NCBI GenBank assembly: GCA_017308475.1
Contig: JAFKEU010000007.1
Location: 186,001-250,000, forward strand
Reading direction: 5' to 3'
Origin: Alphaproteobacteria bacterium
GTDB lineage: Bacteria; Pseudomonadota; Alphaproteobacteria; Micropepsales; Micropepsaceae
DNA length: 64,000 nt
The position numbers were made by a program, and so were the translations under genes. Positions 22,057 to 51,600 of the stretch are shown here, piece after piece; the first letter of the stretch is position 1; each line of letters opens with the position of its first letter. Under the pieces are notes generated by a model. The model saw only the letters and a list, made by a program, of their open reading frames with translations, was not told the origin of the DNA and did no database searches.

Positions 22057-22127
22057 AGCCGGCTCCGGGAGAGGGACATCCGAAGCCGGCTGGTGCCGGG
22101 ACAAAACGGCAAGCGCACCACTTGCCG
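22057..22127 (-). terminator. Hairpin cluster downstream of the M20 peptidase genes
   Basis: Two perfect hairpins on the minus strand after the M20 stop at 22173. The first is a 7-bp stem (22107-22113 with 22121-22127, 7-nt loop). The second is a 9-bp stem (22056-22064 with 22084-22092, 19-nt loop) followed by T-rich TTTGTCTTTG. The second is a plausible intrinsic terminator. The rest of 21865-22172 carries the M28 leader region and no other gene. Confidence 0.55.
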
Positions 22128-22172
22128 AGGGAATGGCTGCCGGCATGAGACGGCAACCAGCCGGCGGCGTCC

Positions 22173-23744: not shown

Positions 23745-23804
23745 CGTCAGCCCCCTTCTGCGAAGAAACGCGGGCCGCCCCGACAAGAGCGGCCCGCCAG
23801 TTCA

Positions 23805-25439: not shown

Positions 25440-25503
25440 GCTGATCTCCAATTTTCTTTTGGAACGCTGCGTGTATGCCAGATCGTGCCGGGATAGGGAA
25501 TGA

Positions 25504-25531
25504 CGGGCCCGCCCGGGAGGGAGCGGGCCCG
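25504..25531 (-). terminator. Hairpin between the TonB receptor and M20 genes
   Basis: A perfect 9-bp GC stem (25504-25512 with 25523-25531), 10-nt loop, 7 nt after the receptor stop. No T run follows, so it may attenuate or stabilise the message rather than fully terminate, allowing some read-through into the peptidase genes. Confidence 0.5.
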
Positions 25532-25537
25532 TTACGC

Positions 25538-31038: not shown

Positions 31039-32901
31039 CTATGCGGCCAGCAGAGCGGCGGTGTGAAACACGATGAAGGCCGCGACATAGGCCAGCGCCA
31101 GCATGTAGCTGAACATCACCACCGGCCACAGCCAGCCGCCCGTCTCCCGCCGCACCACCGCCAGGGTGGACATGCATTGCGGCGCGAAGACATACCAGGC
31201 CAGGAAAGACAGGGCCGTCGCCAGCGGCCATTGATGGGCCAGCGTCGCCGCCAGCATGCCGCCGCCGCCAGCGCCGCTGACGGCATAGACTGTGCCCAGT
31301 GCGCCGACGGCCACTTCGCGCGCCGCCATGCCGGGGATCAGCGCCACCGCCATTTGCCAGGTAAAACCGATGGGCGCCAGCAGCGGATGAATGAAATGGC
31401 CGATCATGCCGGCGAAGCTGTAATCGATGGCCGGCCCGCTGGCGCCCGCCGGCGCGGCGGGAAAGCTGGAGAGGAACCAGATGAGCACCATCATCGAGGC
31501 AATGATGGTCCCTGCCCGCTTCAGGAATATCTGCCCGCGCAGCAGCACGCCACGCGCCACATTCTTGGGGTCCGGTACCTTGTATGCCGGCAGCTCGATC
31601 AGGAAGGGCTCGCTGGCGCTGCGCCAGATCAGCTTGCGCACGATGAAGGCCACGATCAGCGCGCTGCTTATGCCTGCCGCGTAAAGCCCGAACATCACCA
31701 GCCCCTGCAGGTTGGCGAAACCCCACACCGTGCGGTGGGGGATGAAGGCGGCGATAATCAGCGTATAGACGGGAATGCGCGCCGAGCAGGTGGTCAGCGG
31801 CGCTACCAGGATGGTGGTCAGCCGGTCGCGCTTATTGTCGATCACCCGCGCCGACATGATGCCGGGAATGGCGCAGGCGAAGCTGGACAGAAGCGGAATG
31901 AAGGCGCGCCCGTGCAGTCCCGCCACGCCCATCAGCCGGTCCATCAGGAAGGCGGCCCGCGCCATGTAGCCGAAATCTTCCAGCAGGATGATGAAGAAGA
32001 ACAGGATCAGTATCTGGGGCAGGAACACCACCACGCTGCCCACGCCCGCGATCAGGCCGTCAGCAATGAAGCTCTGCAGCAGGCCCGGGGGCATATAATG
32101 CGCCACAGCCTGGCCGAGCCACGTGAAACCCGCATCGATGAGGTCCATCACTGGCGTCGCCCAGCTGAACACCGCCTGGAACATCAAAAACAGGATCAGC
32201 ATCAGGATGGCGGTACCCACCACCGGATGCAGCAGCAGGCCATCCAGCCGTCCGGTCCAGGTATCGGGACGCAGCGGTGGCTTCACATAGGTGCGCATGA
32301 TGCGCTCGGCCTCGCGATGGGCCTGGCGCAATTCCACCGCCGTCGGTTCATGCCAGAGGGAAGCAGTCGCCCCCTGCCCGGCCGCCAGCGCATCGACCTG
32401 GGAAAGCAGATCGTTCAGCCCGCGCTTGCGCACCGCCACGGTGGTCACCACCGGCACGCCCAGCGCCCCGGACAGGCCCTTCAGGTCTATGCGGATGCCC
32501 TGGCGTTCGGCGATGTCGAACATGTTGAGCGCCAGCACCATGGGCCGGCCGACCGACTTCAGCTCCAGCGCCAGGCGCAGCACCAGGCGCAGATTGGTAG
32601 CGTCGGCGACACAGACCAGGATCTCCGGCAAGGATTCGCCCGCCAGCCTGCCCAACACCACGTCGCGGGTCACCGCTTCGTCGGGGCTGCGCGCGCGAAG
32701 GGAATAGGTGCCGGGCAAATCCAGCACCGAGACGCGGCGGCCGCCCGGCGTCAGGACGACGCCTTCCTTGCGCTCCACAGTGACGCCCGGATAGTTGGCG
32801 ACCTTCTGACGCGCGCCCGTCAGCGCGTTGAAAAGCGCGGTCTTGCCCGAATTGGGATTGCCGACCAGGGCGATACGCGTGCCCAGAACTGCCTCGCTCA
32901 T
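31039..32901 (-). CDS. feoB: Ferrous iron transport protein B
   Basis: Product of 620 residues: N-terminal G domain (G1 GNPNSGKT at 14-21, switch VANYPGVTVERKEG, G3 DLPGTYSL, G4-like ALNMFD), a helical spacer, then 7-8 membrane helices with two Gate motifs (FACAIPGIMSAR, ALIPGMAAREV). It imports Fe2+ across the inner membrane under GTPase control. It is shorter than E. coli FeoB (773) but within the normal range. The ATG at 32901 overlaps the feoA stop (ATGA). Confidence 0.96.
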   Translation of the reverse strand: MSEAVLGTRIALVGNPNSGKTALFNALTGARQKVANYPGVTVERKEGVVLTPGGRRVSVLDLPGTYSLRARSPDEAVTRDVVLGRLAGESLPEILVCVADATNLRLVLRLALELKSVGRPMVLALNMFDIAERQGIRIDLKGLSGALGVPVVTTVAVRKRGLNDLLSQVDALAAGQGATASLWHEPTAVELRQAHREAERIMRTYVKPPLRPDTWTGRLDGLLLHPVVGTAILMLILFLMFQAVFSWATPVMDLIDAGFTWLGQAVAHYMPPGLLQSFIADGLIAGVGSVVVFLPQILILFFFIILLEDFGYMARAAFLMDRLMGVAGLHGRAFIPLLSSFACAIPGIMSARVIDNKRDRLTTILVAPLTTCSARIPVYTLIIAAFIPHRTVWGFANLQGLVMFGLYAAGISSALIVAFIVRKLIWRSASEPFLIELPAYKVPDPKNVARGVLLRGQIFLKRAGTIIASMMVLIWFLSSFPAAPAGASGPAIDYSFAGMIGHFIHPLLAPIGFTWQMAVALIPGMAAREVAVGALGTVYAVSGAGGGGMLAATLAHQWPLATALSFLAWYVFAPQCMSTLAVVRRETGGWLWPVVMFSYMLALAYVAAFIVFHTAALLAA

Positions 32902-33176
32902 GGTGTCGTATCGCGCTCGATCAGAATGGCGCGCGCCTCGCGCCGGCGCAGCGCCACGCGCATGTCGTCCAGACGAAGCGCGATGGGATCACGCCCGACC
33001 AGACCTTCATGCAGGACATGGAAACGCGCGCCCTCGACGAATCCCATCTCCAGCAGCCGCCGTTCAAGCTCGTCATGACCAATCTCGCCGGGGCCGTCAT
33101 GGCCTTCCGGCGCGATGCCCTTGATCAGGCCGCGGTCGCCCTTGCGAAGCTCACTCAAGCGCTGGAAATGCCGCAT
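32898..33176 (-). CDS. feoA: Ferrous iron transport protein A
   Basis: Product of 92 residues with an SH3-like FeoA fold: LSELRKGDRGLIKGI, then RRLLEMGFVEGARFHVL and PIALRLDDMRVALRRREA. It regulates or assists FeoB. The ATG at 33176 fits family N-termini; a TTG at 33200 with AGG upstream would add eight residues and cannot be excluded. It heads the feoAB operon. An AT-rich imperfect palindrome just upstream could be a Fur-type site. Confidence 0.92.
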   Translation of the reverse strand: MRHFQRLSELRKGDRGLIKGIAPEGHDGPGEIGHDELERRLLEMGFVEGARFHVLHEGLVGRDPIALRLDDMRVALRRREARAILIERDTTP

Positions 33177-33183
33177 CTCAAGT

Positions 33184-33200
33184 TTGAGAATTAATTGCAA
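33184..33200. promoter_or_regulatory. Candidate Fur-like box upstream of feoA
   Basis: TTGAGAATTAATTGCAA is an imperfect 17-bp palindrome (5 of 8 pairs) with the TTGCAA half-site seen in alphaproteobacterial Fur/Mur boxes. It sits 8 nt before the feoA ATG. The match is weak and partly overlaps the alternative TTG start. Confidence 0.3.
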
Positions 33201-33315
33201 CTAGCCTTTACCGGAGCCTGAGGACAACCGCAAGAGCGGCGAAGCGTCACGCAATTCTTTAGCCGGCGCCGGCGATCCTGGCACCAGCGTAATGCATTGG
33301 ATTCTATAATTTTTC

Positions 33316-34665
33316 TCAAGCTGGTTGGGAGAGCAGCGAGCCGTCCAGGCCTCCCCTGCCGTCATCGGCCCCATCGGGCGCGTCCGGCCCCGACGGAAGC
33401 CAGACCCGGATCGCCAGCCCCGAAACCACGCCATTGCTGGCTTCAATGGTGCCCCGATGCGCAATAATGGCCCGCTTGGCGATGGACAGGCCCAGGCCGT
33501 AACCCTGACCGGCGGCGGGCTGGGCCTGGACGAAGGGTTCGAACAGGCCGGCAAGCTGCCCGCTCTCCACGCCTGGTCCCTGGTCGCGGATCGCGACGCA
33601 ATTGCCTTCGGCGTCTGCGCTCATTTCGACAGTGATGACCTCGCCGCGGCGCGAGAAGCGCAGCGCATTGCGCACTATGTTCTCGATCGCCCGGCTGACC
33701 AGCCGGCCGCTGCCCATCACCGGCCGTTCTTGGCCCCCCGGTATCCTGCCCACCAGATCGATACGCACGCCTTTCTCCTGGGCTTCGAAGCGGGCATCCT
33801 CGACCACCAGACGGACGACTTCGGACAGCGAGAAATATTCGTCGGAGCGCGTGGCCCCGATTTCCAGACGCGACAATGCCAGCAACTCGCCGACCATTTC
33901 CTCCAGCTTGTCGGCCTCGCGGTCGATGCGCTGCAGCGACTGCGGGGTTTTTTCCGGCGACTGGCGGGCCAGTTCGATCGCCAGTTGCAGCCGCGCCAGG
34001 GGCGAGCGCAACTCGTGCGCGATATCGGCCAGAAGGCGGTCGCGGGAGGCGACCAGTTCCTCCAGCCGGTCCGCCATCTGGTCGAAATCCGTGGCCAGGT
34101 CGGCGATTTCATCGCGGCGCCGGTACCAGCCCGGTCCCAGCCGGGCCTTGAGATCGCCGGCCGCCAGCCGCCGGAAGCCCAGCCGGATCCGGCTGATCGG
34201 TACCGTGAGATAGAAAGCCAGCAGGGCGCTGAACAGCAGCGTTCCCACCACCGTTCCCAGGAAGACGCGCGGCCCCATGTCGGCCACCAGCGGCGGCGCA
34301 GCAAAGCCGTGGAAGCGCGTGATCAGATAGGTGATGGCATAGCGGCCGCCATTCGGATCCACCGCCGTGGTGGCAAATATGCCGTGGAAACGGTCGTCAT
34401 GGGGCGGAGCTTCGGAATGCATCCGATGCCAGGTCACCCGCTGGCTTTCCGCCCTGGGCCAAGTGGCCAGCAGGTCACGCAGCCCCTGCTCTCCCCCAAG
34501 GCGCATGGCGGCGGCAGCACCGGAAAGACCCAGCTGTGCCGTGCGCTCCGCGGTGCGGCTGGGGGTGTCGTTGAGGATGGAGTCGACTACCGAGACCAGG
34601 TTGGTGCACAACAGGAAGCTGATCGCGACCCACAGGAATATCTTGAAGAACAGCGGGCGCCTCAT
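33316..34665 (-). CDS. Sensor histidine kinase (EnvZ/CpxA-type)
   Basis: Product of 449 residues. Transmembrane helices at about 7-29 and 132-154 enclose a periplasmic sensor of about 100 residues. Then HAMP (about 155-208), HisKA with His217 in ADIAHELRSPLARLQL, and HATPase_c (N-box ENIVRNALRFS, G1 IRDQGPGV, G2 GYGLGLSIAKRAI). The HELRSPL box and gene order resemble CpxAR-like envelope-stress pairs. The start overlaps the regulator stop (ATGA). A short Asp/Gly-rich tail follows the ATPase domain. Confidence 0.92.
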   Translation of the reverse strand: MRRPLFFKIFLWVAISFLLCTNLVSVVDSILNDTPSRTAERTAQLGLSGAAAAMRLGGEQGLRDLLATWPRAESQRVTWHRMHSEAPPHDDRFHGIFATTAVDPNGGRYAITYLITRFHGFAAPPLVADMGPRVFLGTVVGTLLFSALLAFYLTVPISRIRLGFRRLAAGDLKARLGPGWYRRRDEIADLATDFDQMADRLEELVASRDRLLADIAHELRSPLARLQLAIELARQSPEKTPQSLQRIDREADKLEEMVGELLALSRLEIGATRSDEYFSLSEVVRLVVEDARFEAQEKGVRIDLVGRIPGGQERPVMGSGRLVSRAIENIVRNALRFSRRGEVITVEMSADAEGNCVAIRDQGPGVESGQLAGLFEPFVQAQPAAGQGYGLGLSIAKRAIIAHRGTIEASNGVVSGLAIRVWLPSGPDAPDGADDGRGGLDGSLLSQPA

Positions 34666-35348
34666 GCCGCAACCCTCAGGCGGTAGCCTACGGCCCGGAT
34701 CGTTTCGATTTCGATCGTCCTGCCGGAGACAGTATCAAGCTTCTTGCGCAGATTGCTCACATGCACGTCGATGCTGCGGTCATAGGCTTCGCGCCGCCGG
34801 CCCAGAACGCTGAGAGACAGCTCGTCCTTCGTCGCCACGGCATCGCCGCTGCGCAACAGCGCCTGCAGGAGATCGAATTCGCAGGTCGTCAGCTCCATTG
34901 GCCGCGCATCGAAGGTCACCAGTCGCCGCGCCGGCAGCAGCCTTAGACGGCCCGCAGCGAGATATTGGGAAGACTGCGCGGTGGACGGGTTCTGGCGGCG
35001 CAGCACCGCCTTCAGCCGCGCCAGAAGCTCGCGCGGGTAATAGGGCTTGGCGATATAGTCATCCGCCCCCATCTCCAGGCCCGCGACGCGCTCTTCTTCG
35101 TCACCCTTGGCGGTGAGCATGATTACCGGAACCGCGCTTTGCGCGCGGATGCGCTGCAGGGTTTCGATGCCGCTGATGTCGGGCATCATCACATCCAGGA
35201 TGACTGCGTCCAGCCCGGGATCGAGAGCCGCCGCCGCGCCTTCCAGACCGTTGAAGGCGGCGGCGATTTCAAACCCCTCGCCCCGGAGAAATTCGGTCAG
35301 CATTCCGGTCAGCGCCGCGTCGTCGTCGATTAGCAGGACCTTCGGCAT
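34662..35348 (-). CDS. OmpR/CpxR-type response regulator
   Basis: Product of 228 residues. Receiver 1-118 with VLLIDDDAAL, phospho-acceptor Asp52 in AVILDVMMPD and Lys in DDYIAKPYYPRELLAR. The C-terminal winged helix (about 130-228) has LTTCEFDLLQALLRS, DRSIDVHVSNLRKKL and IRAVGYRLR. The ATG at 35348 gives the usual MPKVLLIDDD N-terminus; an ATG 12 nt upstream adds only MEIV. It follows the five-gene exported cassette on the same strand with a 120-nt gap, so it could regulate that cassette, the feo genes or its own kinase (inference). Confidence 0.93.
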   Translation of the reverse strand: MPKVLLIDDDAALTGMLTEFLRGEGFEIAAAFNGLEGAAAALDPGLDAVILDVMMPDISGIETLQRIRAQSAVPVIMLTAKGDEEERVAGLEMGADDYIAKPYYPRELLARLKAVLRRQNPSTAQSSQYLAAGRLRLLPARRLVTFDARPMELTTCEFDLLQALLRSGDAVATKDELSLSVLGRRREAYDRSIDVHVSNLRKKLDTVSGRTIEIETIRAVGYRLRVAA

Positions 35349-35468
35349 CACGATTTCCATCCCGCGCCGCGACCTCTATCGGGCCTGCTGCCATTCGAGA
35401 ATAAATCCCGGTGCCGCGCCAAGTCCAACGGCACGACTTTGCCGCACCTGCGAAGACCGGCGCGGCGG

Positions 35469-36917
35469 TCAGGGTTTTCCGGCCAAGGCCAGGGATTTCC
35501 CATCGTTGGCGGCCCGCCGATTGGAGGTATCGTTCGCGGCTTTCTCTTCCGGATAGCGGGGCCGGTCCAGGGTCTTGAGGAAGTAATCCTTGCTGGGCAG
35601 ATCGACGATCACCCTTTCCAGGGTGGGAACCGCCGCTTCGGTGGTGCCCGGCGGCACATCCTGGGGGACGCGGGTCGTGACGGCTTTGATGGTGGCGGCG
35701 CGGATGGCCTCGAATGCGGCCTTGCGATCCACTTCACCAGCCAGCAGGGGAATATCCATCGGCTTGTCGGGATCGACGACGTAGGCCGGCATGGCCGTGA
35801 TGCGATAGGCGGTGGAGATGCCCTGATATCGCCGGGTCCGGGGATCATACATGCCGTCAGCGTTGCGCTTCAGGGCATAATAAAGCGCGACATGATCCTC
35901 ATGCTCGCGGATGCCCTGCTGGCCGCCATCCTGGGCGAATGCATTCTCGACATACAGATCGCGCCAGTCGCGGTAACCGCCCAGAAGACCGGCGGCGCTG
36001 CCATCGTCGGCGATCTTGAGCCGGATGCGGCCCTGGTGGAAATCGGCATCACCGGTCTGGTCATAGAACCAGGCAATGCGCGGGGCATGCATTTGCGCGA
36101 CCTGTTCGGTCTGTACCACGCCGTTTCTGATCCTGGCCTTCAACCTGGTGTATTCGGCGGGCTCAAGGATGCGATAGGAATAATCGGGGGCGACGTTGCC
36201 GCGCGCGTCCTTCACGATCTTGTCCGGAGAATAGCCGATCTCGACCGTGGCATTGTCGTCGTTCATCGGATCCTGGTTGCCCGAGATCCGGATTACCATG
36301 GTGTACAAGCCCTCCTGCATCTTGTCGTTGGCGCGCAAGTCCAGCGTGGCATTGCCATTGCCGCGCCAGGGCGCATCACACCCCCAGGCGCGATAAAGCG
36401 CGTTATCAATCCCCTTTTCGCCGTCGGGGCTGACGAAATCCCTGGTGCCGATCTTGCCGTCCAGGTTGAAGCCGTCTCCGATGCGGCTCACCACCTGCGG
36501 CTGGCCGGGATCTTCCGCAGCAAATGGATTGACGTATGTCTCGATGCCGCGCCGGTAGCCGCGATAGGAAACCGCCCGATTCCAGATGAAGAAGCGGGTG
36601 AGGACCGGCGCGCGTGCCTGGCCCAGTCCCGGCGGCTTGGTGATCCAGTCGATCTCCTGCCGGCTGCGCCATTTCTGCCGCGCCAGCGCCCTGCGGGTCT
36701 CATCCTCATTGGCGAAATGCACCGTGCTGCCATGCGGACAATCGACGCCGGGCTCGATTTCGGAGCCGCGGGTAAAGCCGGCCCGGCCGCCATAGCGGAA
36801 GGCATATTCATAGGTGGCGACCACATAGCCCCTGACCCAGGGCGCGGCGGACACCGGCTGTGCGCCGCACAGAAGACCGGCCAGCGCGCAGAACCACAGA
36901 TGCTTGTGCAGGCGCAT
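35469..36917 (-). CDS. Exported protein of unknown function in the DUF1592/DUF1552 cassette
   Basis: Product of 482 residues with a Sec signal (FCALAGLLCGAQPVSAA). No enzymatic family is recognised. Visible features: an aromatic-rich N-terminal region (VRGYVVATYEYAFRYGG), an Asp/Gly block GKIGTRDFVSPDGEKGIDN followed by YRAWGCDAPW, DNATVEIGYSPDK, a region with IAWFYDQTGDADFH, and an early CPHGSTVHF. The polar, Asp/Tyr-rich composition suits a periplasmic or surface protein with possible metal sites. The ATG at 36917 follows AGAGGA. It begins 14 nt after the cupredoxin stop, the same spacing style as the rest of the cassette, so it is probably co-transcribed. Confidence 0.75.
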   Translation of the reverse strand: MRLHKHLWFCALAGLLCGAQPVSAAPWVRGYVVATYEYAFRYGGRAGFTRGSEIEPGVDCPHGSTVHFANEDETRRALARQKWRSRQEIDWITKPPGLGQARAPVLTRFFIWNRAVSYRGYRRGIETYVNPFAAEDPGQPQVVSRIGDGFNLDGKIGTRDFVSPDGEKGIDNALYRAWGCDAPWRGNGNATLDLRANDKMQEGLYTMVIRISGNQDPMNDDNATVEIGYSPDKIVKDARGNVAPDYSYRILEPAEYTRLKARIRNGVVQTEQVAQMHAPRIAWFYDQTGDADFHQGRIRLKIADDGSAAGLLGGYRDWRDLYVENAFAQDGGQQGIREHEDHVALYYALKRNADGMYDPRTRRYQGISTAYRITAMPAYVVDPDKPMDIPLLAGEVDRKAAFEAIRAATIKAVTTRVPQDVPPGTTEAAVPTLERVIVDLPSKDYFLKTLDRPRYPEEKAANDTSNRRAANDGKSLALAGKP

Positions 36918-36931
36918 GATCCTCTTCCCCG

Positions 36932-37321
36932 TCAGGACACGATCACCGTGCCGACCATCCCCATGGTTTCATGGTATTTGCAGACATACTTGTAGGTGCC
37001 TTTGGCCGCGAAGGTGTGGCTGTAGCTTTCTTCTTCCTCGATATCATCGGAACCGAAGGGCTGGACCCCGGGCGGCAACGCGACGTCGGCGGCGTTGGCG
37101 GCCTGGGCCGGGTCGAAGGTTACGGTGTGGGTGATGTTGTGCGGATTGGTCCACTTGACCGTATCGCCGGCCTTAATGTTCAGCGTAGCAGGCTCGAATT
37201 CCATGCGCGGCGCCTGGTTCATGCTGACTTCGACGGTCCTGGACTGGGCCAGGGCCGGCACGATCAGGCTGGTTCCCAGTGCGGCAACCGAGCTGGTAAA
37301 GGCGCGTCGATGCAGTGTCAT
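36932..37321 (-). CDS. Type-1 copper cupredoxin (plastocyanin/amicyanin-like), exported
   Basis: Product of 129 residues. Arg-Arg signal (LHRRAFTSSVAALGTS, cleavage near ALAQ), then a cupredoxin beta-sandwich. Copper ligands: His65 in WTNPHNITHTV, then Cys114, His117 and Met122 in YVCKYHETMGMVG, which aligns with the plastocyanin pattern Cys-x2-His-x4-Met. This predicts a blue copper electron carrier in the periplasm. An acidic patch DDIEEEE precedes the copper loop. The ATG at 37321 follows GGAGGA. It lies inside the cassette with the haem-motif protein, which makes an electron-transfer role likely. Confidence 0.9.
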   Translation of the reverse strand: MTLHRRAFTSSVAALGTSLIVPALAQSRTVEVSMNQAPRMEFEPATLNIKAGDTVKWTNPHNITHTVTFDPAQAANAADVALPPGVQPFGSDDIEEEESYSHTFAAKGTYKYVCKYHETMGMVGTVIVS

Positions 37322-37362
37322 GGATCCTCCGGGCACTATTCTTCCCGCGTCAGCCTGAAAGG

Positions 37363-37980
37363 TCATTGCGGGGGCGAGACCTGGTTGACCAACAGATCGG
37401 AGACAGCGCCGGCTTCGAACGCCAGCGGATCGGCATCATCCATCTGGTCCTTGTGGAGTGCGATATCGGCGCTGGCTTCAAAATCGGCGATGGTCGCGGC
37501 GTCCTTGCCGTCGGCGAAGAAGGCGGCACCCGAGAACGGGCTCCAGCTCTTCCAGGCCGGGTCGCCCGACAGCCTGTAGCGCCAGACGGGGCGGAAATAT
37601 TCCATGCGGAAACTGTAGCGCAGTCCCGCCGGATCGCGCCGTGGGACCGCAACGGCATCGCCCCTGCCGCGCGCTTCGATGAAGCTGAACCAGCGGCCAT
37701 CCTGTTCCAGGGTCAGTTCTGCCGCGCGCCAGGCAAGATATTTCTCGACATCATCTCGGCTGGTGAATTTGTGCCCCGCCAAAACCAGGTGAAAGCGGTC
37801 GGCCCCCTTCTTCTCCATTTTGAAGACGCCGGGCCCGGCGGGTGGAACCATGTCCAGCCTTTCGGGCGCGTCCGCGAGCGCCACCTTGGCGGCGGCAGGC
37901 GCAGCCTGGGCCTGTCCGGCAAGACAGAAAAAAGCGGCTGCCACAGCAACGGTGCGGCCAGTGGAAATTCGGAACGACAT
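37363..37980 (-). CDS. Exported hypothetical protein, CC0125/CC1285-like
   Basis: Product of 205 residues with a signal (VAVAAAFFCLAGQAQAA). Its central block, FHLVLAGHKFTSRDDVEKY then LAWRAAELTLEQ, resembles the Caulobacter CC0125/CC1285 family core, in which a Thr/Ser-rich turn precedes a helix ending in RAAEL. No lipobox Cys is present, unlike many family members. The C-terminal half is aromatic-rich (MEYFRPVWRYR, WKSWSPFSG). Function unknown. It is 41 nt upstream of the cupredoxin gene and 24 nt downstream of the DUF1552 gene. Confidence 0.65.
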   Translation of the reverse strand: MSFRISTGRTVAVAAAFFCLAGQAQAAPAAAKVALADAPERLDMVPPAGPGVFKMEKKGADRFHLVLAGHKFTSRDDVEKYLAWRAAELTLEQDGRWFSFIEARGRGDAVAVPRRDPAGLRYSFRMEYFRPVWRYRLSGDPAWKSWSPFSGAAFFADGKDAATIADFEASADIALHKDQMDDADPLAFEAGAVSDLLVNQVSPPQ

Positions 37981-38004
37981 GCACGCCCCCTGGGATGGCG
38001 ATGT

Positions 38005-39336
38005 TCAGACAAGCAGCTCGGTGAACGGGCTCTTGGTCTCCATGGATCCGGAGCCCCAGCTTTCCAGCGAAATGTCCATCGCCTTTTGCGCGGTCAGACC
38101 GACGCGGGAAACCGGGCTGCCGTCGCCATTGATGTGGTAGCCGGTTTTCATCCGGCCATTGGCGGAGCCCGCGGTCAGCATCGGAATGCCGTCCAGTGCG
38201 TGAATCTTGGCGAAGGCGACGTCGGTGAAGGCGTAGACAAGGCAATGATCCAGCAGCGTACCGTCGCCTTCGGGAATGGCATCCAGTTCCTGAAGGTAAC
38301 TGAGGAAGAGCTCCATGTTGTAGACATTGTAATTGGCCACGCGCGGCTGATAGCCCAGCAACGGGTCGATCGGCTCCTCGTGGGTGGACTGGTGATAGCC
38401 CAGCGAGTCGCCGGGAATGAAAATCTGCGAACCCGGCTCGGACACGCTCATGTGGAAGACGCGGGTCTGGTCGGTAGCCATCGCCAGCGCGGCAAGCCGG
38501 GACATCAATGGTGTGACCTTGCGCAGGTTGGGCAGCGCATTGTTGCAGGCCATTTCCTCCGGCGCGGCGGGGATGGCAACCTTGGCCTCGATTTCGGGCC
38601 GCTGCAGTTCGGCCTGCATCTGAAGCTCCGCCTCGCGGACCGATGTGAAATACTGATCCATGCGGCTGCGATCGGAGGCTCCGAGTTCCTGCATGGCGCG
38701 CTTGCGGTCGTCGGCCACCACCGACAGCACACTCTGCTGAAGCATGACTTGCGGATCAGGCTTCCAGTCGCCCTTCGACGGGTCCTGAAAGCCAGGCCCG
38801 AACAGGCGCGTATATAAAGAAAGCGGCGAAACCTCCGCCGGCAGCGTATTGGCCCCACCCAGGCTGGAATAGCTCTGCCGGGCGTCCCCGGCACAGGACG
38901 CCGCCACCGACTTGAAACGCGCGCCGCGGCTGACCACATCGGCCACCTGCTGGTCGATGGTTTTGGAATCAAACTGGCTCATCTTTGTGGGGGAGATGCC
39001 AGTGGCGCTGGCACCGACGCCGGACCAGTGCTGATAATTGGGATTGTTGTCCACTGCCACCCGCAAGCCGCTGAACACGTTGATCTTGGCCCGCAGCGGC
39101 TGGAGCGGCTTGAGTTGCTCCGTCACTTCATAGTCCTTGCCTGCCGTCTTGGGCACCCACAGCTGCTTGGTCAGGCCCAGGCCATAGAAATAGGTGCTGA
39201 ACCGGGTGGGCAGCGGCCGCCCGCTCGCGGCCAAGGCTTTGCCCTTGCTGTCCAGCAAACAGTCAAGGAATGGAAGCCCCATGACGGCCAGAGCGCCCTG
39301 GCACGAACCCCGGAGAAGGAATCTGCGGTCAAGCAT
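38005..39336 (-). CDS. DUF1552 family protein, Tat-exported
   Basis: Product of 443 residues. It begins MLDRRFLLRGSCQGALAVMG, a twin-arginine signal, which implies export of a folded, possibly cofactor-bearing protein. The body matches the DUF1552 family seen in planctomycetes, acidobacteria and some proteobacteria: RFSTYFYGLG, LQPLRAKINVFSGL, ADVVSRGARFKSV, YTRLFGPGF, RMDQYFTSVREAE, GYHQSTHEEP and GTLLDHCLVYAF. These suggest an alkaline-phosphatase/sulfatase-like core (inference). The ATG at 39336 follows GGGGAA. It is the standard neighbour of DUF1592-type haem proteins, as here (30 nt gap). Confidence 0.85.
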   Translation of the reverse strand: MLDRRFLLRGSCQGALAVMGLPFLDCLLDSKGKALAASGRPLPTRFSTYFYGLGLTKQLWVPKTAGKDYEVTEQLKPLQPLRAKINVFSGLRVAVDNNPNYQHWSGVGASATGISPTKMSQFDSKTIDQQVADVVSRGARFKSVAASCAGDARQSYSSLGGANTLPAEVSPLSLYTRLFGPGFQDPSKGDWKPDPQVMLQQSVLSVVADDRKRAMQELGASDRSRMDQYFTSVREAELQMQAELQRPEIEAKVAIPAAPEEMACNNALPNLRKVTPLMSRLAALAMATDQTRVFHMSVSEPGSQIFIPGDSLGYHQSTHEEPIDPLLGYQPRVANYNVYNMELFLSYLQELDAIPEGDGTLLDHCLVYAFTDVAFAKIHALDGIPMLTAGSANGRMKTGYHINGDGSPVSRVGLTAQKAMDISLESWGSGSMETKSPFTELLV

Positions 39337-39366
39337 AGCGACGTTCCCCATACATGCGTGGCCCCA

Positions 39367-41007
39367 TCAATGCATCGCCACCTTGCCGCCGCTGCCGGAC
39401 GGTGGCGCGGGTGGCGGTGCGCTGTAAAGCTCCGGCCCCTCGGCAAGTCCTTTCAGCAGCGCGCGCAGGTGGTACCCGGAATCGACGAACCCTGCATAAG
39501 CCGTCTTGAGCGCCGCGGGACGGACGCGTTCTGTATTCTCGCCGCGCGCATAGGCAAACATCTTGCGCGCCAGGCAGGCGGGAAATTTCGGATTGTCGTG
39601 CAGGTAGCGGCCCACGCCCTCGGCGCCGGTGATGCTCTGACCCCGGATCTTGGTCGTCAGGTCGATCAGCTCGCCATTTTCCCGGGTGCGATGGCCGCCG
39701 ATGGTATCGAAGCCTTCCAGCGTTAGCCCGATGGGGTCGCTGTGATTGTGGCAGGACGCACAGACCGGGTTCGTGGCGTGGGCCGTCAGCCGCTGGCGTA
39801 CCGTCTTCAGCGGGCCACTGGTATTGTTGATGATGGAGAAGTCCACATTGTTGGGCGGATTTGGCGTGGGCTCGCACAGGAAGATATCCATCAGCGCCAC
39901 GCCGCGCTTGGTCGGCGATGACCGGCCGGGATGGGAGAACATCGCCAGCATGCTGGCCTGGGTCAGGATGCCGCTGCGCCCCGCCTGCGGGCCGAATTCG
40001 TATTTCACCCATTCGCCGCTGAATGGGAATGGCACCTGATAGATGGCGGCCAGGCTGCGATTGATGAATGTCTGGCGGGTCGTCATCAGGTCGCGCATGT
40101 CGCCGTCGCGGGTCAGCGCCAGGTCGATCACTGTCCGCAGGGTTTCCTCCCTGGCGGAATTGGCGATCGCCACGCCCCATTTGGGATAAAGCAGACTGTC
40201 CTTCGACACCGTGTCGAAGTTGTCCAGCTCCAGCATGTCGTTGAAGAAGGCGCGCATGCCCACTTCCAGCCGGGGCGAGGCCATCAGGCGGCCGACTTCT
40301 TTTTTCAGGCCGGCATCGGAATTCAGTGCGCCGGTCTCGGCCGCCGTCAGCAATTCGGCATCCGGCGTGGTGTTCCACAGCAAGTAGGACAGCCGCGCGG
40401 CGCGGCTGTAGGGTTCCAGCGTGTACTGATCACCGCCGCCGGGCACCGCCACCTCCTTGCGGAACAGGAAGTCCGGCGCCTGGATCAGGCTGGCGAGGCC
40501 GTAGCGCAGGCCGGCGTAGAAATCCTTCTGCCTGGCCGCCAGCGTGTGCGTGAGCGCGATGCGGCTTTTCAGTTCATCGTCGGTCAACGGACGGCGGAAC
40601 AGCATCAGGCCGTAATGGGACAGTATCTTGCCGGCACAGGCATCGTCCGGCGCCGCGGGGGATTTGGGCGTACAGGGAAGACGGGAGCGCAGCTTCTCGC
40701 CTGTCACCTGCACGGCGATGCTGTCTGCCATCCTGGTATAGGATTCGAAGCCCGCCGGGGTAACCGAGAGCACCGATGTGCTTGCGGCCAGGAGGCCACC
40801 CACGCGGATCGTCGGTTCGAACACGCCCCGTATCTCGATGCCGGCGCCGAAGATGTCGGCGATGGAGTTCCTATATTCCTCCTGCGTCAGACGCCGGAGG
40901 GTGACGATTTCGGATTTCGCGGCGGGCGATTTGCCGGCAGCGGCAATGGCTGCGCCCCCCGCAGCAAGCAATGCCAGGGAAAGGGCCAGGACAAGATATT
41001 TGCGCAT
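39367..41007 (-). CDS. DUF1587/1595/1592/1588/1585 multidomain c-type haem protein
   Basis: Product of 546 residues with a Sec signal (1-24). Domains in order: DUF1587 (LRRLTQEEYRNSIADIFG, 38-55), DUF1595 (ILSHYGLMLFRRPLTDDEL, about 128-146), DUF1592 (LEPYSRAARLSYLLWNTTPD, about 197-330), DUF1588 (RSGILTQASMLAMFSHPGRS, about 344-430) with one CASCH haem-attachment motif at 416-420, and DUF1585 (IRGQSITGAEGVGRYL onward). This is the planctomycete-type cytochrome architecture, of unknown substrate. It is first gene of the five-gene exported cassette. A spaced inverted repeat sits just before its ribosome binding site. Confidence 0.88.
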   Translation of the reverse strand: MRKYLVLALSLALLAAGGAAIAAAGKSPAAKSEIVTLRRLTQEEYRNSIADIFGAGIEIRGVFEPTIRVGGLLAASTSVLSVTPAGFESYTRMADSIAVQVTGEKLRSRLPCTPKSPAAPDDACAGKILSHYGLMLFRRPLTDDELKSRIALTHTLAARQKDFYAGLRYGLASLIQAPDFLFRKEVAVPGGGDQYTLEPYSRAARLSYLLWNTTPDAELLTAAETGALNSDAGLKKEVGRLMASPRLEVGMRAFFNDMLELDNFDTVSKDSLLYPKWGVAIANSAREETLRTVIDLALTRDGDMRDLMTTRQTFINRSLAAIYQVPFPFSGEWVKYEFGPQAGRSGILTQASMLAMFSHPGRSSPTKRGVALMDIFLCEPTPNPPNNVDFSIINNTSGPLKTVRQRLTAHATNPVCASCHNHSDPIGLTLEGFDTIGGHRTRENGELIDLTTKIRGQSITGAEGVGRYLHDNPKFPACLARKMFAYARGENTERVRPAALKTAYAGFVDSGYHLRALLKGLAEGPELYSAPPPAPPSGSGGKVAMH

Positions 41008-41021
41008 GCCGTTCCCGCTTT

Positions 41022-41058
41022 GGCGTGGCGACTTTGACTCGCGTTTTTAAGCCACGCC
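41022..41058. promoter_or_regulatory. Spaced 8-bp inverted repeat in the leader of the DUF1592 gene
   Basis: GGCGTGGC (41022-41029) and GCCACGCC (41051-41058) are perfect inverse copies with a 21-nt centre. The element ends 14 nt before the ATG, directly upstream of the ribosome binding site, so it could form a leader hairpin or an operator for the cassette. Confidence 0.5.
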
Positions 41059-41192
41059 GCCGGCAGGATGACGATATTTACATATTCTTTACGCGAGCCA
41101 TCGAGGTCGCGCTATCGCAGTGCAACATTTGTAGCCCGCTCTCGTCATGCTGCAATTGCGTTGCGGTGAAAGGGCAACAGAGCCGGGGATCG

Positions 41193-42209
41193 TCAGGCCA
41201 GGCGCGCGACAGGCTCCCTGGCCGGACTGACGGATGGCTCCCGCACACCATGATATTGGCGATGCCAGTCGACAAATTTTCCAAGCCCGATCTCCAGCGG
41301 GGTGACGGGCGCGAAGTCCAGGTCCCGGCGGCTGTCCTCGATGTCGGCATATGTGGATGGCACATCGCCTGGCTGCATCGGTTCCAGGATCAGCTCCGCC
41401 TTGCGGCCGACAAGGCGTTCAAGCGTGGCGACAAAGTCCAACAGCTTCTGCGGCCTGCAATTGCCCAGATTGTAGACGGTATGGGGTGGGGTGCCCGTTG
41501 CCGGCCGCCGCAACGCCTTGAGCGTTCCCTGGACGATATCATCTATATAAGTGAAGTCGCGCCACATCTCGCCGCGGTTGAAGATTCGAATCGCCCTGCC
41601 CTCTGCGATGGCGCTGGTGAAGGAATAATAGGCCATGTCGGGCCGGCCCCAGGGGCCATACACCGTGAAAAACCGCAGCCCCGTGCAGGGGAAACCATAC
41701 AGGTGAGCATAGGTATGGGCGATAAGCTCGTCTGCGCGTTTGGTCGCGGCATAAAGCGAGCAAGGCGCCAGCACTGGATCGCTGACTGCGAACGGAACCT
41801 TGGTGTTGGCGCCGTAGACGGACGAGGAACTGGCATAAACGAAGTGCGTCAACTGTTTCAATCGCCGCGCCAGCTCCAGCATCGTCACCTGCCCCATCAC
41901 ATTGGAGCGGACATAGGCAAAGGGATTCTCGATCGAATAGCGAACGCCGGCCTGGGCCGCCAGGTGCACAATGGCCGTGATGTCGGGCATTTCATCCGCA
42001 AGCGCCAGGATGGTGTCAGGCTCTGATATGTCGAGCTTGCGGAAGTGAAACCCGCCATGCGGAAGCAGCCGCTCCAGCCGCGCCCGCTTAAGCCCCCGGT
42101 CGTAATAGTCGTTGACATTGTCGACGCCAAAAACCTGCACGCCTTGGGCAAGCAACGCCTGGGCCACGTGGTAGCCGATGAAACCGGCCGCGCCGGTGAC
42201 GAGGATCAT
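41193..42209 (-). CDS. UDP-glucuronate 4-epimerase (extended SDR)
   Basis: Product of 338 residues. Rossmann motif TGAAGFIG (5-12), NVNDYYDRGLK typical of UDP-GlcA epimerases, HLAAQAGVRYS, catalytic Ser with Tyr153 and Lys157 (YAATK), FFTVYGPWGRPDM, and the C-terminal QPGDVPSTYADI followed by PLEIGLGKFVDW. It converts UDP-glucuronate to UDP-galacturonate for polysaccharide synthesis. It is 3 nt downstream of the UDP-glucose dehydrogenase gene, so the pair supplies uronic acid precursors for the neighbouring exopolysaccharide genes. Confidence 0.9.
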   Translation of the reverse strand: MILVTGAAGFIGYHVAQALLAQGVQVFGVDNVNDYYDRGLKRARLERLLPHGGFHFRKLDISEPDTILALADEMPDITAIVHLAAQAGVRYSIENPFAYVRSNVMGQVTMLELARRLKQLTHFVYASSSSVYGANTKVPFAVSDPVLAPCSLYAATKRADELIAHTYAHLYGFPCTGLRFFTVYGPWGRPDMAYYSFTSAIAEGRAIRIFNRGEMWRDFTYIDDIVQGTLKALRRPATGTPPHTVYNLGNCRPQKLLDFVATLERLVGRKAELILEPMQPGDVPSTYADIEDSRRDLDFAPVTPLEIGLGKFVDWHRQYHGVREPSVSPAREPVARLA

Positions 42210-42212
42210 GGC

Positions 42213-43559
42213 CTATTCCGCCGCCACCGAGTCCGCTACCGCCGCGGGCGCGGGTATGACCTGGGCACGGCCGATGCTGATATAGCGGAAGCCATAACTT
42301 CGCATCTGCTCCGGCGCATAGATGTTGCGCAGGTCGACGATCAGTTTCTCCTTGAGAAGGCTCGCCACCCTGACCAGATTCAGGGCGCGAAATTCATTCC
42401 ATTCCGTCAGGAGAACCAGGCCGTCGGCGCCTTCCATCGCCTCATAAGCATCGGCACAGGTGTCGACGTCCATCAGTGACCTGGCCTGCTCCATACCTTC
42501 CGGGTCATAGGCCCGCACATTTGCGCCCATCGCCTTGAGGGCCGGCACGATGGCAAGGCTGGGTGCATCACGCATGTCATCGGTGTTGGGTTTGAATGTC
42601 AGGCCCAGGATCGCCACGGTCCGGCCGGTCAGGTTGCCGCCAAACGCAGCGGCGATGCGGTCGGCCATCGCCAGCTTGCGGGAATCGTTGACAGCCACAA
42701 CCGATTCCACGATCCGCGAGCCCACACCATGATCCTGCGAAGTCTTGAGCAGGGCCAGCGTGTCCTTGGGAAAGCAGGATCCGCCAAAGCCCGGTCCGGC
42801 ATGAAGGAATTTTGAACCAATGCGCTTGTCCAGGCCCACGCCGCGCGCCACGTCCTGCACATCGGCGCCCACCTGTTCGCACAGGTCCGCCATTTCGTTG
42901 ATGAAGGTGATCTTGGTGGCCAGGAAGGCGTTGGACGCATATTTGATCAGTTCCGCGCTTTCGCGGCCGCTGAACAGCATGGGCGTCTCGTTGATGAAAA
43001 GCGGACGATAAATCTCGCGCATCACCTCACGGGCACGTTCGCTGACACAGCCGACCACCACGCGGTCGGGCCGGCGGAAATCCTCGATCGCCGAACCTTC
43101 GCGCAGGAATTCCGGATTGGACGCGACATCGAAATCCGCATCCGGACGTGCAGAACGGATGATCTCCTGCACCCGCCGGCCGGTGCCGACCGGTACGGTG
43201 GATTTGGTGACGACAACGGTATAGCTGTCGAGATGGCGCGCGATTTCCTCGGCGGCGGTAAAGACATAGGACAGGTCGGCATGGCCGTCGCCGCGTCGGG
43301 CCGGCGTGCCCACCGCGATGAATACCGCATCGGCACGCGCAACGGCCGACAGTTCGCTGTCGAAGGACAGCCGGCCCGCGCGCACGTTGGCGGCGATCAC
43401 CTCGTCCAGCCCCGGCTCGAAAATTGGAACCATGCCAGCCTGGAGCGCACGCAACCGTGCCGGATCCTTTTCCACGCACGTCACTTCATGACCGAATTCG
43501 GAGAGACAGGAACCGGAGACAAGTCCGACATAGCCGGCTCCGATCATGACGATGCGCAT
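42213..43559 (-). CDS. ugd: UDP-glucose 6-dehydrogenase
   Basis: Product of 448 residues. N-terminal NAD domain MIGAGYVGLVSG, then FIAVGTPARRGDGHADL, STVPVGTG, ASNPEFLREGSAI, central-helix KYASNAFLATKI (Lys206, Asn210) and catalytic Cys262 in GFGGSCFPKD. The C-terminal UDP-binding domain has LGLTFKPNTDDMRD. It oxidises UDP-glucose to UDP-glucuronate in two steps. The ATG at 43559 (MRIVMIGAG) follows AAAGGA; the upstream in-frame extension duplicates MRIV without a ribosome binding site. Divergent from the acyltransferase gene. Confidence 0.95.
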   Translation of the reverse strand: MRIVMIGAGYVGLVSGSCLSEFGHEVTCVEKDPARLRALQAGMVPIFEPGLDEVIAANVRAGRLSFDSELSAVARADAVFIAVGTPARRGDGHADLSYVFTAAEEIARHLDSYTVVVTKSTVPVGTGRRVQEIIRSARPDADFDVASNPEFLREGSAIEDFRRPDRVVVGCVSERAREVMREIYRPLFINETPMLFSGRESAELIKYASNAFLATKITFINEMADLCEQVGADVQDVARGVGLDKRIGSKFLHAGPGFGGSCFPKDTLALLKTSQDHGVGSRIVESVVAVNDSRKLAMADRIAAAFGGNLTGRTVAILGLTFKPNTDDMRDAPSLAIVPALKAMGANVRAYDPEGMEQARSLMDVDTCADAYEAMEGADGLVLLTEWNEFRALNLVRVASLLKEKLIVDLRNIYAPEQMRSYGFRYISIGRAQVIPAPAAVADSVAAE

Positions 43560-43737
43560 GGCGACAATCCTTTCCTTGGAAACTATGCGCAAAGGCTAAG
43601 GCGGCGTCGTTTCGGATGCTGTGACAAACCCGTGATATATGTTGCAACGCAACCATTATGGGGTGGCAGGGCCGCTGAGCGATGTTAGAGGATCGTTCCG
43701 CAGTAACGGTTTGCAAAGGCAGGGACTAGTTCATCGC

Positions 43738-44856
43738 ATGCGCATGAAGCATCTGGACACCCTGCGCGCGATGGCGCTGGGACTTGTATTGGTCGAACAT
43801 TTCGGCGGCCGCCCCTTGAACGAACTTGTTCCTATTGGTGCGGGATCGGTCGGCGTCGGCTGCTTCTTCACACTCAGCGGCTTCCTGATCACCGGCATCC
43901 TGCTGGAGAGTTTTGACGCGCGTCCCAGCGCAAAGGGGGCCGTCTGGCTCGACTTCTACGCCAGGCGCATGTTGCGGCTGATGCCTGCTTTTTATGCGGT
44001 GATAATCGCGCTGGTTCTTCTGCGCATCGAGCCGGTCGTTCGCAGCTGGCCGTGGGACGCCGCCTACCTGACCAATGTCCATATCGCGCTCGGCGCCCAG
44101 GACACGGTGTTCTGGAGCCTGTCCGTCGAAGAGCAGTTCTATATGGTATGGCCGTTTGTGATCGCCTTTGCGCCCAGGCGCTGGTTGCCGGCGACCATTC
44201 TGGCCATGATGGCGTTCTCGCTGCTGTTCAAGCTCGGCATCGTGATGGGCGGCTTCGATCCACGCTCGGCCACCCGCCTGCTGCCCGGCCATCTGGTGCT
44301 GCTGGGTGCCGGTTGCCTTCTGGCCGTGGTCAGCTATCGCGGCCAGAGCGCCAACTGTTTTACCTGGTATGCCGGATTCAACAGGCGCGCCTTTACGACA
44401 GCCGCGTGGGTTGCGATCGGCGTTGCCATCCTGTCCTGGGCGAGCCTTCCGAAGGAAGGCGGGTTGGTCCGCTATTTCACCAACGACCTGCTCTGCGGAA
44501 CCTTCTATGCCTGGCTGGTGCTGAACTGTGCAATCGGCGTGCGCGGTCCGCTAAAAGGGTTCTTCGACAGTTCGGTCCTGCAGTATGTGGGGCGCATCAG
44601 CTATGGGCTCTATCTGGTTCACAACTGGATGCCGGACATCGTCACCAAGTTTTTTGGCCCGATGCCCAAATTCCAGGCGGCGCCGATCGTGCTGGTATTG
44701 ACCTTCGGCGTCTGTATCCTGTCCTGGCACTTCTTCGAAAAGCCCGTCCTTCGCCTGAAACGCTATTTCTGGAACGCTCCTCTGGATCGGCCCCGGGCCC
44801 CCGACCCCGAGAGGGGGGATCGGGTGGCGGTATCCAGTTCCGCGAATGCCTATTGA
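43738..44856 (+). CDS. Acyltransferase 3 family membrane protein
   Basis: Product of 372 residues with about ten membrane helices. Family marks: HLDTLRAMALGLVLVEHF with the catalytic His near residue 21, GVGCFFTLSGFLITGILL, FYARRMLRLMPAFY, FWSLSVEEQFYMVWP, and late GRISYGLYLVHNW. Such enzymes O-acylate (often O-acetylate) surface polysaccharides. Location between the nucleotide-sugar genes and the export genes supports decoration of this polymer. The ATG at 43738 was chosen because the N-terminal motif begins directly after it; the longer frame adds a non-hydrophobic extension. Confidence 0.88.
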   Translation: MRMKHLDTLRAMALGLVLVEHFGGRPLNELVPIGAGSVGVGCFFTLSGFLITGILLESFDARPSAKGAVWLDFYARRMLRLMPAFYAVIIALVLLRIEPVVRSWPWDAAYLTNVHIALGAQDTVFWSLSVEEQFYMVWPFVIAFAPRRWLPATILAMMAFSLLFKLGIVMGGFDPRSATRLLPGHLVLLGAGCLLAVVSYRGQSANCFTWYAGFNRRAFTTAAWVAIGVAILSWASLPKEGGLVRYFTNDLLCGTFYAWLVLNCAIGVRGPLKGFFDSSVLQYVGRISYGLYLVHNWMPDIVTKFFGPMPKFQAAPIVLVLTFGVCILSWHFFEKPVLRLKRYFWNAPLDRPRAPDPERGDRVAVSSSANAY

Positions 44857-44903
44857 CCCGGCAGCGGCAGACCTCAGAATGACCGACAATTAATCCGTTC
44901 GCC

Positions 44904-46244
44904 GTGGGGATTCGTTTGCGCAAGCATCATTCGGTTGCTGCTCCCATCGGGGGCCTCATATTTTGTGGCCTGTGCCTCGCCGCCACACCGGTACTGGGAC
45001 AAAGTTCCGCCAATCCTGCGGCGATGCCCCAGGTTCCGGCCAACAATCCCGAGAGGGCACGCCGCGAGAGCGGGGCCCTTCTGGAAGGCATGGGGGTCAT
45101 GGACCGGGCCCGGCCCGAATATGACGCGCAGGGCCTTCCCGTGGGCGGCCTGACGCTGTTTCCGACCCTGGCGGCGGCCGGCACTCTCGACGACAATATC
45201 TATCGGGCCGCCGATCCGACCGTGGATTCGCTGTGGACCATCTCGCCGCGGCTCGATCTGCGCTCGAACTGGCTGAACAATGCATTCCAGCTCTACAGCC
45301 AGCTCGACCACTATGCCTATGACAGCCACGACACCGAAACCCGAACCGACTGGATCGTGGGGGGACTGGGGCGGCTGGACCTGGCGCCAGGCAGCTATGC
45401 CATGGTCAGATCCTCCTATTTCGACACGCATGAGTCCCGCACATCGCCCGACCTCTCGCTGACCGCGCTGAGCCCCACCCGATATACCCGCGGCCATGCC
45501 GACGGCACCCTTGTCGGCCAGTTCTCGGCCTTCACCCTGACCGGCATGCTGAGCTATGACCGCTACGACTTCGACAGTACGAAATTGATCGGCGGAGGCT
45601 TCATCGACAATGGTGACCGCAATCGCAACGCGCTGGAAGCGACTGGCCGCGTCTCCTATGAGCTGGCGCCCGAACAGGCGGTGTTCGTACAAATGACCTA
45701 CGACAGGCGCGATTTCGACCGGCAGGTGGACCGCAACGGATTCGACCGCAATTCCGATGGCACGCGGGTAGATGCCGGCGTTTCCATGATGATGACGCCG
45801 CTGATCCGCGGCACCGCCTATGTCGGCTGGCTTCAGCAGAATTACGCCGCGCCTCTGAAGGACGCCAACGGCATCGACTTCAATGCCCAGATCGACTGGT
45901 TCGCCACCGAACTGCTGACCGCGCATCTGACGGCCTCCCGGATCATCGATGACACCACCATCGCCGGAGCCTCATCGGTCGAGGTCAGCCGGGTCGGGGC
46001 CTCGGCGGACTATGAGTTGCTGCGTCCGCTGATCCTGCAGCCCTATGTCCGATATACGGACGAGAATTTCCAAGGCATAACGCGCGACGACCAGATTTCC
46101 GAAGCCGGACTGGAAGCGCGCTATTTGATGAACAACTATCTGGCAGCCTATGTCGGATTTGACTTCCAGAATCGCGCCACTACCGCGACCGGCCGCGACT
46201 TCACCGACCATGTCTTCACCCTTGGCATTCGCGGCCAGTATTAG
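44904..46244 (+). CDS. Outer-membrane beta-barrel protein of the polysaccharide cluster (BBP2/EpsL-like)
   Basis: Product of 446 residues. Signal peptide (GLIFCGLCLAATPVLGQ), a short linker, then alternating aromatic/polar strands from LTLFPTLAAAGTLDDNIYRA through SWRY-like strand pairs to the terminal FTLGIRGQY, whose last residue is aromatic as in barrel proteins. The TLDDNIYRA block is typical of BBP2-type proteins found in exopolysaccharide loci; the likely role is polymer export or surface attachment. The start is uncertain: GTG at 44904 lacks a ribosome site, whereas TTG at 44916 (MRKHHSVAAP) has GGGGA 5 nt upstream. It is convergent with the glycosyltransferase gene, 9 nt apart. Confidence 0.8.
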   Translation: MGIRLRKHHSVAAPIGGLIFCGLCLAATPVLGQSSANPAAMPQVPANNPERARRESGALLEGMGVMDRARPEYDAQGLPVGGLTLFPTLAAAGTLDDNIYRAADPTVDSLWTISPRLDLRSNWLNNAFQLYSQLDHYAYDSHDTETRTDWIVGGLGRLDLAPGSYAMVRSSYFDTHESRTSPDLSLTALSPTRYTRGHADGTLVGQFSAFTLTGMLSYDRYDFDSTKLIGGGFIDNGDRNRNALEATGRVSYELAPEQAVFVQMTYDRRDFDRQVDRNGFDRNSDGTRVDAGVSMMMTPLIRGTAYVGWLQQNYAAPLKDANGIDFNAQIDWFATELLTAHLTASRIIDDTTIAGASSVEVSRVGASADYELLRPLILQPYVRYTDENFQGITRDDQISEAGLEARYLMNNYLAAYVGFDFQNRATTATGRDFTDHVFTLGIRGQY

Positions 46245-46253
46245 GCCCAGGGT

Positions 46254-47033: not shown

Positions 47034-47035
47034 GT

Positions 47036-50421: not shown

Positions 50422-50425
50422 CCGT

Positions 50426-51592: not shown

Positions 51593-51600
51593 CGCGCACC

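Follow-up and report, generated by a model that had tools for sequence, protein, structure and literature searches.

Genes of the DUF1592/DUF1552 type are common in planctomycetes and their relatives and are not known to have an established function. The present analysis concerns a run of five minus-strand genes, here called A to E and together the cassette, within a window of 64,000 nucleotides (positions 186,001 to 250,000 of contig JAFKEU010000007.1, assembly GCA_017308475.1) from an alphaproteobacterium of the family Micropepsaceae. The first two genes resemble the DUF1592/DUF1588-DUF1552 pairs of Planctomycetes, Verrucomicrobia and others in their Pfam domains and in the order A-B; the cassette differs from those pairs in that A is short, with one CxxCH motif and no PSCyt1 haem, that B bears the motif HxxTHE, and that a third protein, E, stands with them. 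One account (PMC5615132) describes PSCyt3 genes as usually lying beside an unknown gene family, in organisations called intriguing and of unknown function, and another (PMC2754498) gives 41 copies each of the related domains DUF1553 and DUF1549 for R. baltica and suggests a redox function for such related domains. No open-access paper describing E or the E-A-B triad was found.

Further described systems touch on the run. The D protein is like the plastocyanin, amicyanin and pseudoazurin-type carriers in its Copper-bind profile and its H-C-H-M ligands, but falls below the cut-off of every listed named model (plastocyanin, 68.1 of 87.85 bits; amicyanin, 44.8 of 110.2), and pairs of cytochrome c' and cytochrome b561, which most alphaproteobacterial relatives that have the cassette carry within this run, are absent from the window. 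Of the Cellvibrio electron-transfer proteins Cbp2D and Cbp2E, Cbp2D contains a c-type cytochrome domain and is connected in PMC12542752 with catabolism outside the cell; a link to the cassette was considered and rejected, as the domains described there are others (the carbohydrate-binding module CBM2, X158 and X183) and Pfam found no such module in A or E, X158 and X183 not having been searched for.

An earlier note on this DNA read the run as an exported redox cassette, and overlooked what is the main point: E is the constant partner of this particular DUF1592/DUF1552 clade, and its copies have multiplied next to genes of catabolism. The E-A-B triad is well supported, whilst the role of each part and the reaction are what we infer from the sequences.

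E as the third partner of a distinct DUF1592/DUF1552 clade

A (39367..41007, minus strand) is an exported c-type haem protein of 546 amino acids, of the DUF1592/DUF1588 (PSD4/PSCyt3) kind, in which the Pfam domains DUF1587, 1595, 1592, 1588 and 1585 all lie above the gathering score. Its single CxxCH, at residues 416-420, is the DUF1588 haem motif and is kept in 30/30 aligned A rows, 27 of them distinct (L084 and L085 repeat L016 and L037); a second N-terminal haem of the PSCyt1 kind was not found in the window's A, which has one CxxCH and no PSCyt1 match in Pfam. B (38005..39351, minus strand) is a twin-arginine (Tat)-type DUF1552 protein (PF07586; 170 bits against a cut-off of 30) listed at 448 amino acids, for which comparison with relatives favours a start at 39336 (443 amino acids); HQSTHE takes the place of HxxSHH, and His315, His319, Asp363 and His379 are invariant across 30 B rows. 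We take B to be linked to the alkaline-phosphatase-like superfamily, and a metal may sit at the conserved His/Asp residues. E (35469..36917, minus strand) is an exported protein of 482 amino acids, from a family without a match.

E is present in 17 of the 96 genomes of the window's family. In an independent search for B, a cassette-type B (at least 55% identity) turned up in all but one of these 17 genomes, 16 in number, and in not one of the 79 genomes that lack E. Six of the E-less genomes have only a B at 28-33% identity, as does G105, the sole E-bearing exception; there the contig with c'-C-D-E ends within the cytochrome gene, so that A and B may just have been missed by the assembly. A plasmid collection gave 13 records in the E search and 15 in the B search; the B matches at 41-43% identity are on the same 13 records as E, and the two without E match at 25%. 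As 12 of the 13 records are from Sphingobium, few lineages are represented here. In a class-wide sample of 385 genomes E occurs in five, the window's included, and all ten loci taken from the other four have it immediately ahead of A-B, at 28-41% identity to the nearest query E; these loci were fetched by E, and only the A-B adjacency is thus informative.

Six plasmid loci were viewed. In two of them, both from Sphingobium (L109 and L122), the order is TonB receptor, a gene resembling a regulator (AraC by annotation in L109, hypothetical in L122), E, DUF1592, DUF1552, cytochrome c' and b561; in L107 E-A-B is followed by a glyoxalase-like gene, and in L110, from Novosphingobium, E-A-B has c' and b561 near. 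The remaining two lie about 200 kb apart on the TomTYG65 plasmid: L108 is a solo E, that plasmid's only E match, and L123 is A-B-c'-b561 without E, a split which fits E working in trans. On the plasmid pMSHV of Sphingobium herbicidovorans, E (L109:8384-9729) is annotated as two overlapping open reading frames and is probably broken, A, B, c' and b561 being whole. The available main text of a paper on tomatine and Sphingobium strains (PMC10653915) makes no mention of cytochromes or TonB.

The A and B genes which E accompanies form a clade of their own, with a short, single-CxxCH A and a B bearing HxxTHE, not HxxSHH. From the loci in hand 53 B genes were tabulated and counted by hand from the rows; two are without the motif region, 45 carry H-x-x-[S/T]-H-[E/Q/M] and six have other forms (HPxSHH in four, HHAASHN and HRLSHA). 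E lies within 4.1 kb of 43 of the 45 variant-motif genes, the other two being L096, at a contig end, and L123. One CxxCH is found in 42 of the 43 A genes beside a variant-motif B, the remaining A being cut, whereas of the A genes next to a B of the other type four are uncut, and these run to 816-1053 codons from stop to stop and carry two; PSCyt1 is just below the Pfam cut-off in both of the long forms scanned. With the other B type there is no E in the locus for L104 and L105, and the nearest E is 3.3-7.3 kb away in L034, L037 and L044; L086 is intermediate (HRLSHA, a cut A with one CxxCH, E at 2 kb). Most tabulated loci were fetched by E, and the table thus speaks for the linkage of these features and not for their frequency, the unbiased tests being the family-genome and plasmid searches. 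L104 (G000:C3) and L105 (G000:C9) belong to the window's own genome, which in addition to the cassette thus contains two long DUF1592 genes, each with two CxxCH and a DUF1552 partner but without E in the vicinity, and in related genomes (L037, L044) such long pairs adjoin an exported ankyrin-repeat gene.

Copies of E and the genes beside them

Neither the window's E nor its relatives matched Pfam, NCBIfam or PDB sequences (best PDB E-value 0.58). The predicted strands are compatible with a beta-barrel, for which lipocalin-like and TbpB-like folds were considered, with helices in addition, and Cys60 and Cys180 are invariant among near relatives. A quinoprotein with cysteine tryptophylquinone formed from Cys60/Cys180 and Trp178 was considered and rejected, as residue 178 is Met in P0230, P0235 and P0239.

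E is far more numerous in some genomes of the window's genus than the genes of the cassette. G001, G015, G018 and G035 have 12, 10, 7 and 6 E matches respectively. The corresponding numbers are one, two, two and one for C, and three, two, about three and one for B (at least 55% identity); other family genomes reach 11, 10 and 8 E matches, and four E-bearing genomes, the window's included, have one. In a FastTree tree the cassette E genes are spread over several clades, with solo copies in between. An E was counted as solo if no cassette gene lay within 5 kb in its locus; of the 84 E genes in L013-L083, 44 are solo and have at least three neighbours. An amino-acid or amide family stands within three genes of 30 of these 44, compared with 5 of 37 cassette-side E genes; the families counted were D-aminoacylase-like amidohydrolase, DgaE/SelA-like ammonia lyase, RidA, DAO-type and amine-oxidase-type flavoproteins, D-serine-dehydratase-like, cysteine-synthase-like, creatininase, formamidase and amidase, representatives of which were profile-scanned, except that cysteine synthase and amidase were named from sequence by eye. 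Among the 180 genes no more than three places from a solo E, 48 belong to such families, compared with 9 of 264 at least five genes away (odds ratio 10, Fisher p 9e-13).

A regulatory motif shared by the regions upstream of A and of solo E was sought by k-mer and dyad counts in 63 regions, a few of them duplicates, and nothing convincing emerged. In L050-L052 E is preceded by an amine-oxidase-type flavoprotein (scanned in L052) with a twin-arginine-like start and by a small CQGCH protein, a cytochrome c by its motif; the two may be redox partners of E of another kind.

The five-gene run, its variants and its surroundings

Between B and E lie C (37363..37980), an exported CC0125/CC1285-family protein of 205 amino acids, and D (36932..37321), a Tat-type plastocyanin-like cupredoxin of 129 amino acids, both on the minus strand. 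D was listed as an open reading frame of 144 amino acids (36932-37366, start 37366), but relatives favour the start at 37321, for which the numbering of its ligands holds; it matches the Pfam profile Copper-bind (PF00127) with the H-C-H-M set. The ligands His65, Cys114, His117 and Met122 are invariant, together with the twin-arginine pair, in 22/22 rows (21 distinct). The earlier note's description of the run was largely sound: open reading frame positions and Pfam/NCBIfam bear out five minus-strand genes with the domains given for A, B and D, CASCH does occupy residues 416-420 of A, the four copper ligands are as numbered in the 129-amino-acid D, and the gaps of 14-41 nucleotides hold provided that D starts at 37321, the listed start giving a C/D overlap of 4 nucleotides. 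Export signals, read by eye, are present in all five proteins as had been claimed, of Sec type in A, C and E and with twin arginines in B and D (R4/R5 and R5/R6 invariant). Of the two proteins called unknown, E is so in having no family match, but C matches NCBIfam NF047637 (CC0125/CC1285 family lipoprotein; 79.2 bits against a cut-off of 40); a lipobox cysteine at the end of its signal peptide was not found by eye, AFFC at residues 16-19 being no lipobox.

The recurrence of the gene order and the conservation of the redox sites had been proposed as checks, and the order A-B-C-D-E is indeed found in alphaproteobacterial genomes and beyond, with CASCH and the copper ligands kept in the homologues. 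An E-based scan of genome contigs gave 71 loci, many of them cut by contig ends, of which 13 have the complete order (L013, L015, L016, L046, L053-L056, L071, L074, L079, L081 and L082), as does L033 with a cut A. These 13 come from alphaproteobacterial metagenome-assembled genomes (MAGs), six Bradyrhizobium strains and one Acidobacteria MAG (L056), and four further Acidobacteria loci (L057, L058, L064 and L067) have A-B-C-E without D. Of the redox-cassette claim, the conserved order, haem motif and copper ligands stand, whereas the cupredoxin proves to be outside the universal core.

The main variation is at the B-C junction (37981..38004, minus strand), which measures 24 nucleotides in the window and holds cytochrome c' and/or b561 genes in most alphaproteobacterial relatives. 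B and C are 0.7-1.5 kb apart in 12 of the 13 complete loci, L056 being compact like the window; the insert comprises c' and b561 in 11 of the 13, c' alone in L016 and neither in L056, as called by sequence clusters, with Pfam PF01322 and PF01292 run on the L071 pair. The presence of these genes in the same run strengthens the electron-transfer reading. In the window genome nothing matched the relatives' cytochrome c' in protein searches where relatives do match, and the only b561 is a 39% paralogue elsewhere in the genome; Pfam searches of this genome for PF03640 and PF01322 were empty with the controls also silent, and the protein searches were relied on instead. Further afield, b561 is absent in G001 and c' in G017. 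The compact form of the window may be either a loss or the older form.

Next in line after E, as the earlier note had it, are an OmpR/PhoB-type response regulator (34662..35360) and a HAMP-HisKA-HATPase sensor histidine kinase (33316..34665), both on the minus strand and identified by Pfam/NCBIfam. The pair is also downstream of E in L015, L016, L018 and L068 (identity 78-81% for the regulator, 57-63% for the kinase), where a small exported protein lies between E and the regulator (PF03640 in L018, the others by cluster); this protein is absent from the window genome and present in 11 of the 17 E-bearing genomes. A one-repeat PF03640 form follows E in several close relatives, and PF03640 proteins of three to five repeats follow DUF1552 in two distant genomes (L125, L128, L131); the family is a recurrent further partner. 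TonB receptors lie upstream in four of the six Bradyrhizobium loci (L053, L055, L071 and L074), with ExbB-type genes, and also in MAG loci L079, L081 and L082 and plasmid loci L109, L122 and L123. Within 33000-42300 no sigma-70-type promoter pattern was found, and terminator-like patterns number 14 against 7.0 (standard deviation 3.4) expected, the one between E and the regulator (35423-35407) having five pairs.

Elsewhere in the window, feoB-like and feoA genes come directly after the kinase (31039-33200; FeoA by Pfam, FeoB by eye), and a minus-strand run at 19642-28408 holds, by eye, a peptidase-like gene, two exported M20-type peptidase/amidohydrolase-like genes and a TonB receptor-like gene, a homologue of the M20-type gene being upstream of the cassette in L013. 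Two exported pyrroloquinoline quinone (PQQ)-type alcohol dehydrogenase-like genes are on the plus strand (10427-12418 and 13049-15109, Pfam on the second), with relatives near some E loci (L026, L035, L037). On the other side a large exopolysaccharide-type gene block, read by eye (41193-59813), adjoins the cassette.

What the module may do

The reading we favour, tentatively and with rather less than even confidence, is that the conserved module would be an exported oxidation machine in which A and B form the core and E is an interchangeable, likely substrate-recognising subunit. It is suggested by the few A-B pairs against the many copies of E, by the catabolic neighbours, by the TonB receptors and by the cytochromes or cupredoxin in the run. 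The substrate would enter via the TonB receptor and then bind E, to be oxidised or cleaved at A/B, where A would offer its single c-type haem and B a metal bound near its conserved His/Asp residues; electrons would leave via the A haem to cytochrome c' and b561 and from there to the quinone pool, or in the window, which is without both cytochromes, through the cupredoxin D, and the adjacent two-component system would regulate the module. A more far-reaching version would make E-DUF1592-DUF1552 a hitherto undescribed exported oxidoreductase of three parts with plug-in specificity. Each cell would have one to three haem/metal cores and up to a dozen exchangeable E, many of them encoded within a catabolic cluster of their own; import would be by TonB, and c'/b561 or a blue-copper protein would serve interchangeably as outlet. 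This version is possible but on balance doubtful.

Several observations weigh against the favoured reading. The cytochromes are dispensable, being absent from between B and C in the window and in the Acidobacteria loci, with b561 missing in G001 and c' in G017, and, of the five Acidobacteria loci that have A, B, C and E, four are without D, as are the viewed Sphingobium loci; there is thus no universal electron outlet. The window genome, with one E and one cassette, shows no interchange. No conserved haem, flavin or metal motif was recognised in E, which leaves a redox or substrate-binding role unsupported, and the models of E and A matched no solved structure at a Foldseek E-value of 0.001 or below, where an unlisted family could still match. 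Some E matches are fragments at contig ends, which may also hide cassette genes near a "solo" E, and 14 of the 44 solo genes have none of the chosen families beside them; these families were chosen post hoc and related or orthologous loci were counted repeatedly, so that the p-value overstates the enrichment.

The surplus of E over its partners, with one to three A-B pairs to as many as a dozen E matches, could also be read as A and B serving the maturation or quality control of E, a haem protein oxidatively modifying E, which when mature would work alone in the periplasm, much as MbnH oxidatively modifies MbnP. The many E genes far from the core, also on one plasmid, and the conserved Trp/Tyr/Cys of E would suit this, but A has one CxxCH and is in this unlike the MauG/MbnH-type dihaem enzymes, which have two, Trp178 of E is replaced in the three proteins named above, and the b561 in the run points to respiration; we regard maturation as rather improbable. 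The TonB receptors admit of another use, namely metal acquisition, with import of a metal complex, its reduction by the haem, b561 and copper proteins, a metallophore- or metal-binding E, and FeoAB nearby. In Bradyrhizobium L071 a receptor and ExbB are directly upstream, the next two genes being ExbD- and TonB-like by eye, and this receptor scores best, though below cut-off, against siderophore receptors; FeoA moreover follows the kinase in the window. No feo gene, however, was seen after the regulator and kinase in L015, L016, L018 or L068 (L016 and L068 have an RND-type gene, by eye), and the solo E genes adjoin amino-acid and amide catabolism genes, and we give this explanation a similarly low probability.

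The same neighbours, mostly small-molecule enzymes, speak against A, B and E acting on surface polymers or glycans in the manner of planctomycete PSCyt proteins with carbohydrate-binding modules, as does the lack of any carbohydrate-binding domain in A or E in Pfam. A carbohydrate role is suggested for some Verrucomicrobia PSCyt genes in PMC5615132, and a CBM2-DUF1592 protein of Cellvibrio is listed in PMC6004670; a polymer substrate nevertheless appears to us no likelier than a small chance. That the run is a fortuitous row of exported genes with no common function is scarcely credible: C, D, cytochrome c' and b561 do vary between lineages, but the order recurs in genomes as distant as those of Alphaproteobacteria and Acidobacteria, which makes the run more than chance, and the co-occurrence of E with B and the E-A-B triad itself contradict it.

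On the far-reaching version with plug-in specificity, these bacteria would have a means of oxidising amino compounds beyond the inner membrane, and Sphingobium perhaps also plant steroids or alkaloids. Should E prove to be an exchangeable specificity subunit, such an architecture would itself be out of the ordinary among periplasmic oxidation systems. With its constant third partner, a respiratory outlet in the gene run, catabolic neighbours and culturable members in Bradyrhizobium and Sphingobium, this clade opens the function of the entire DUF1592/DUF1552 group to direct testing.

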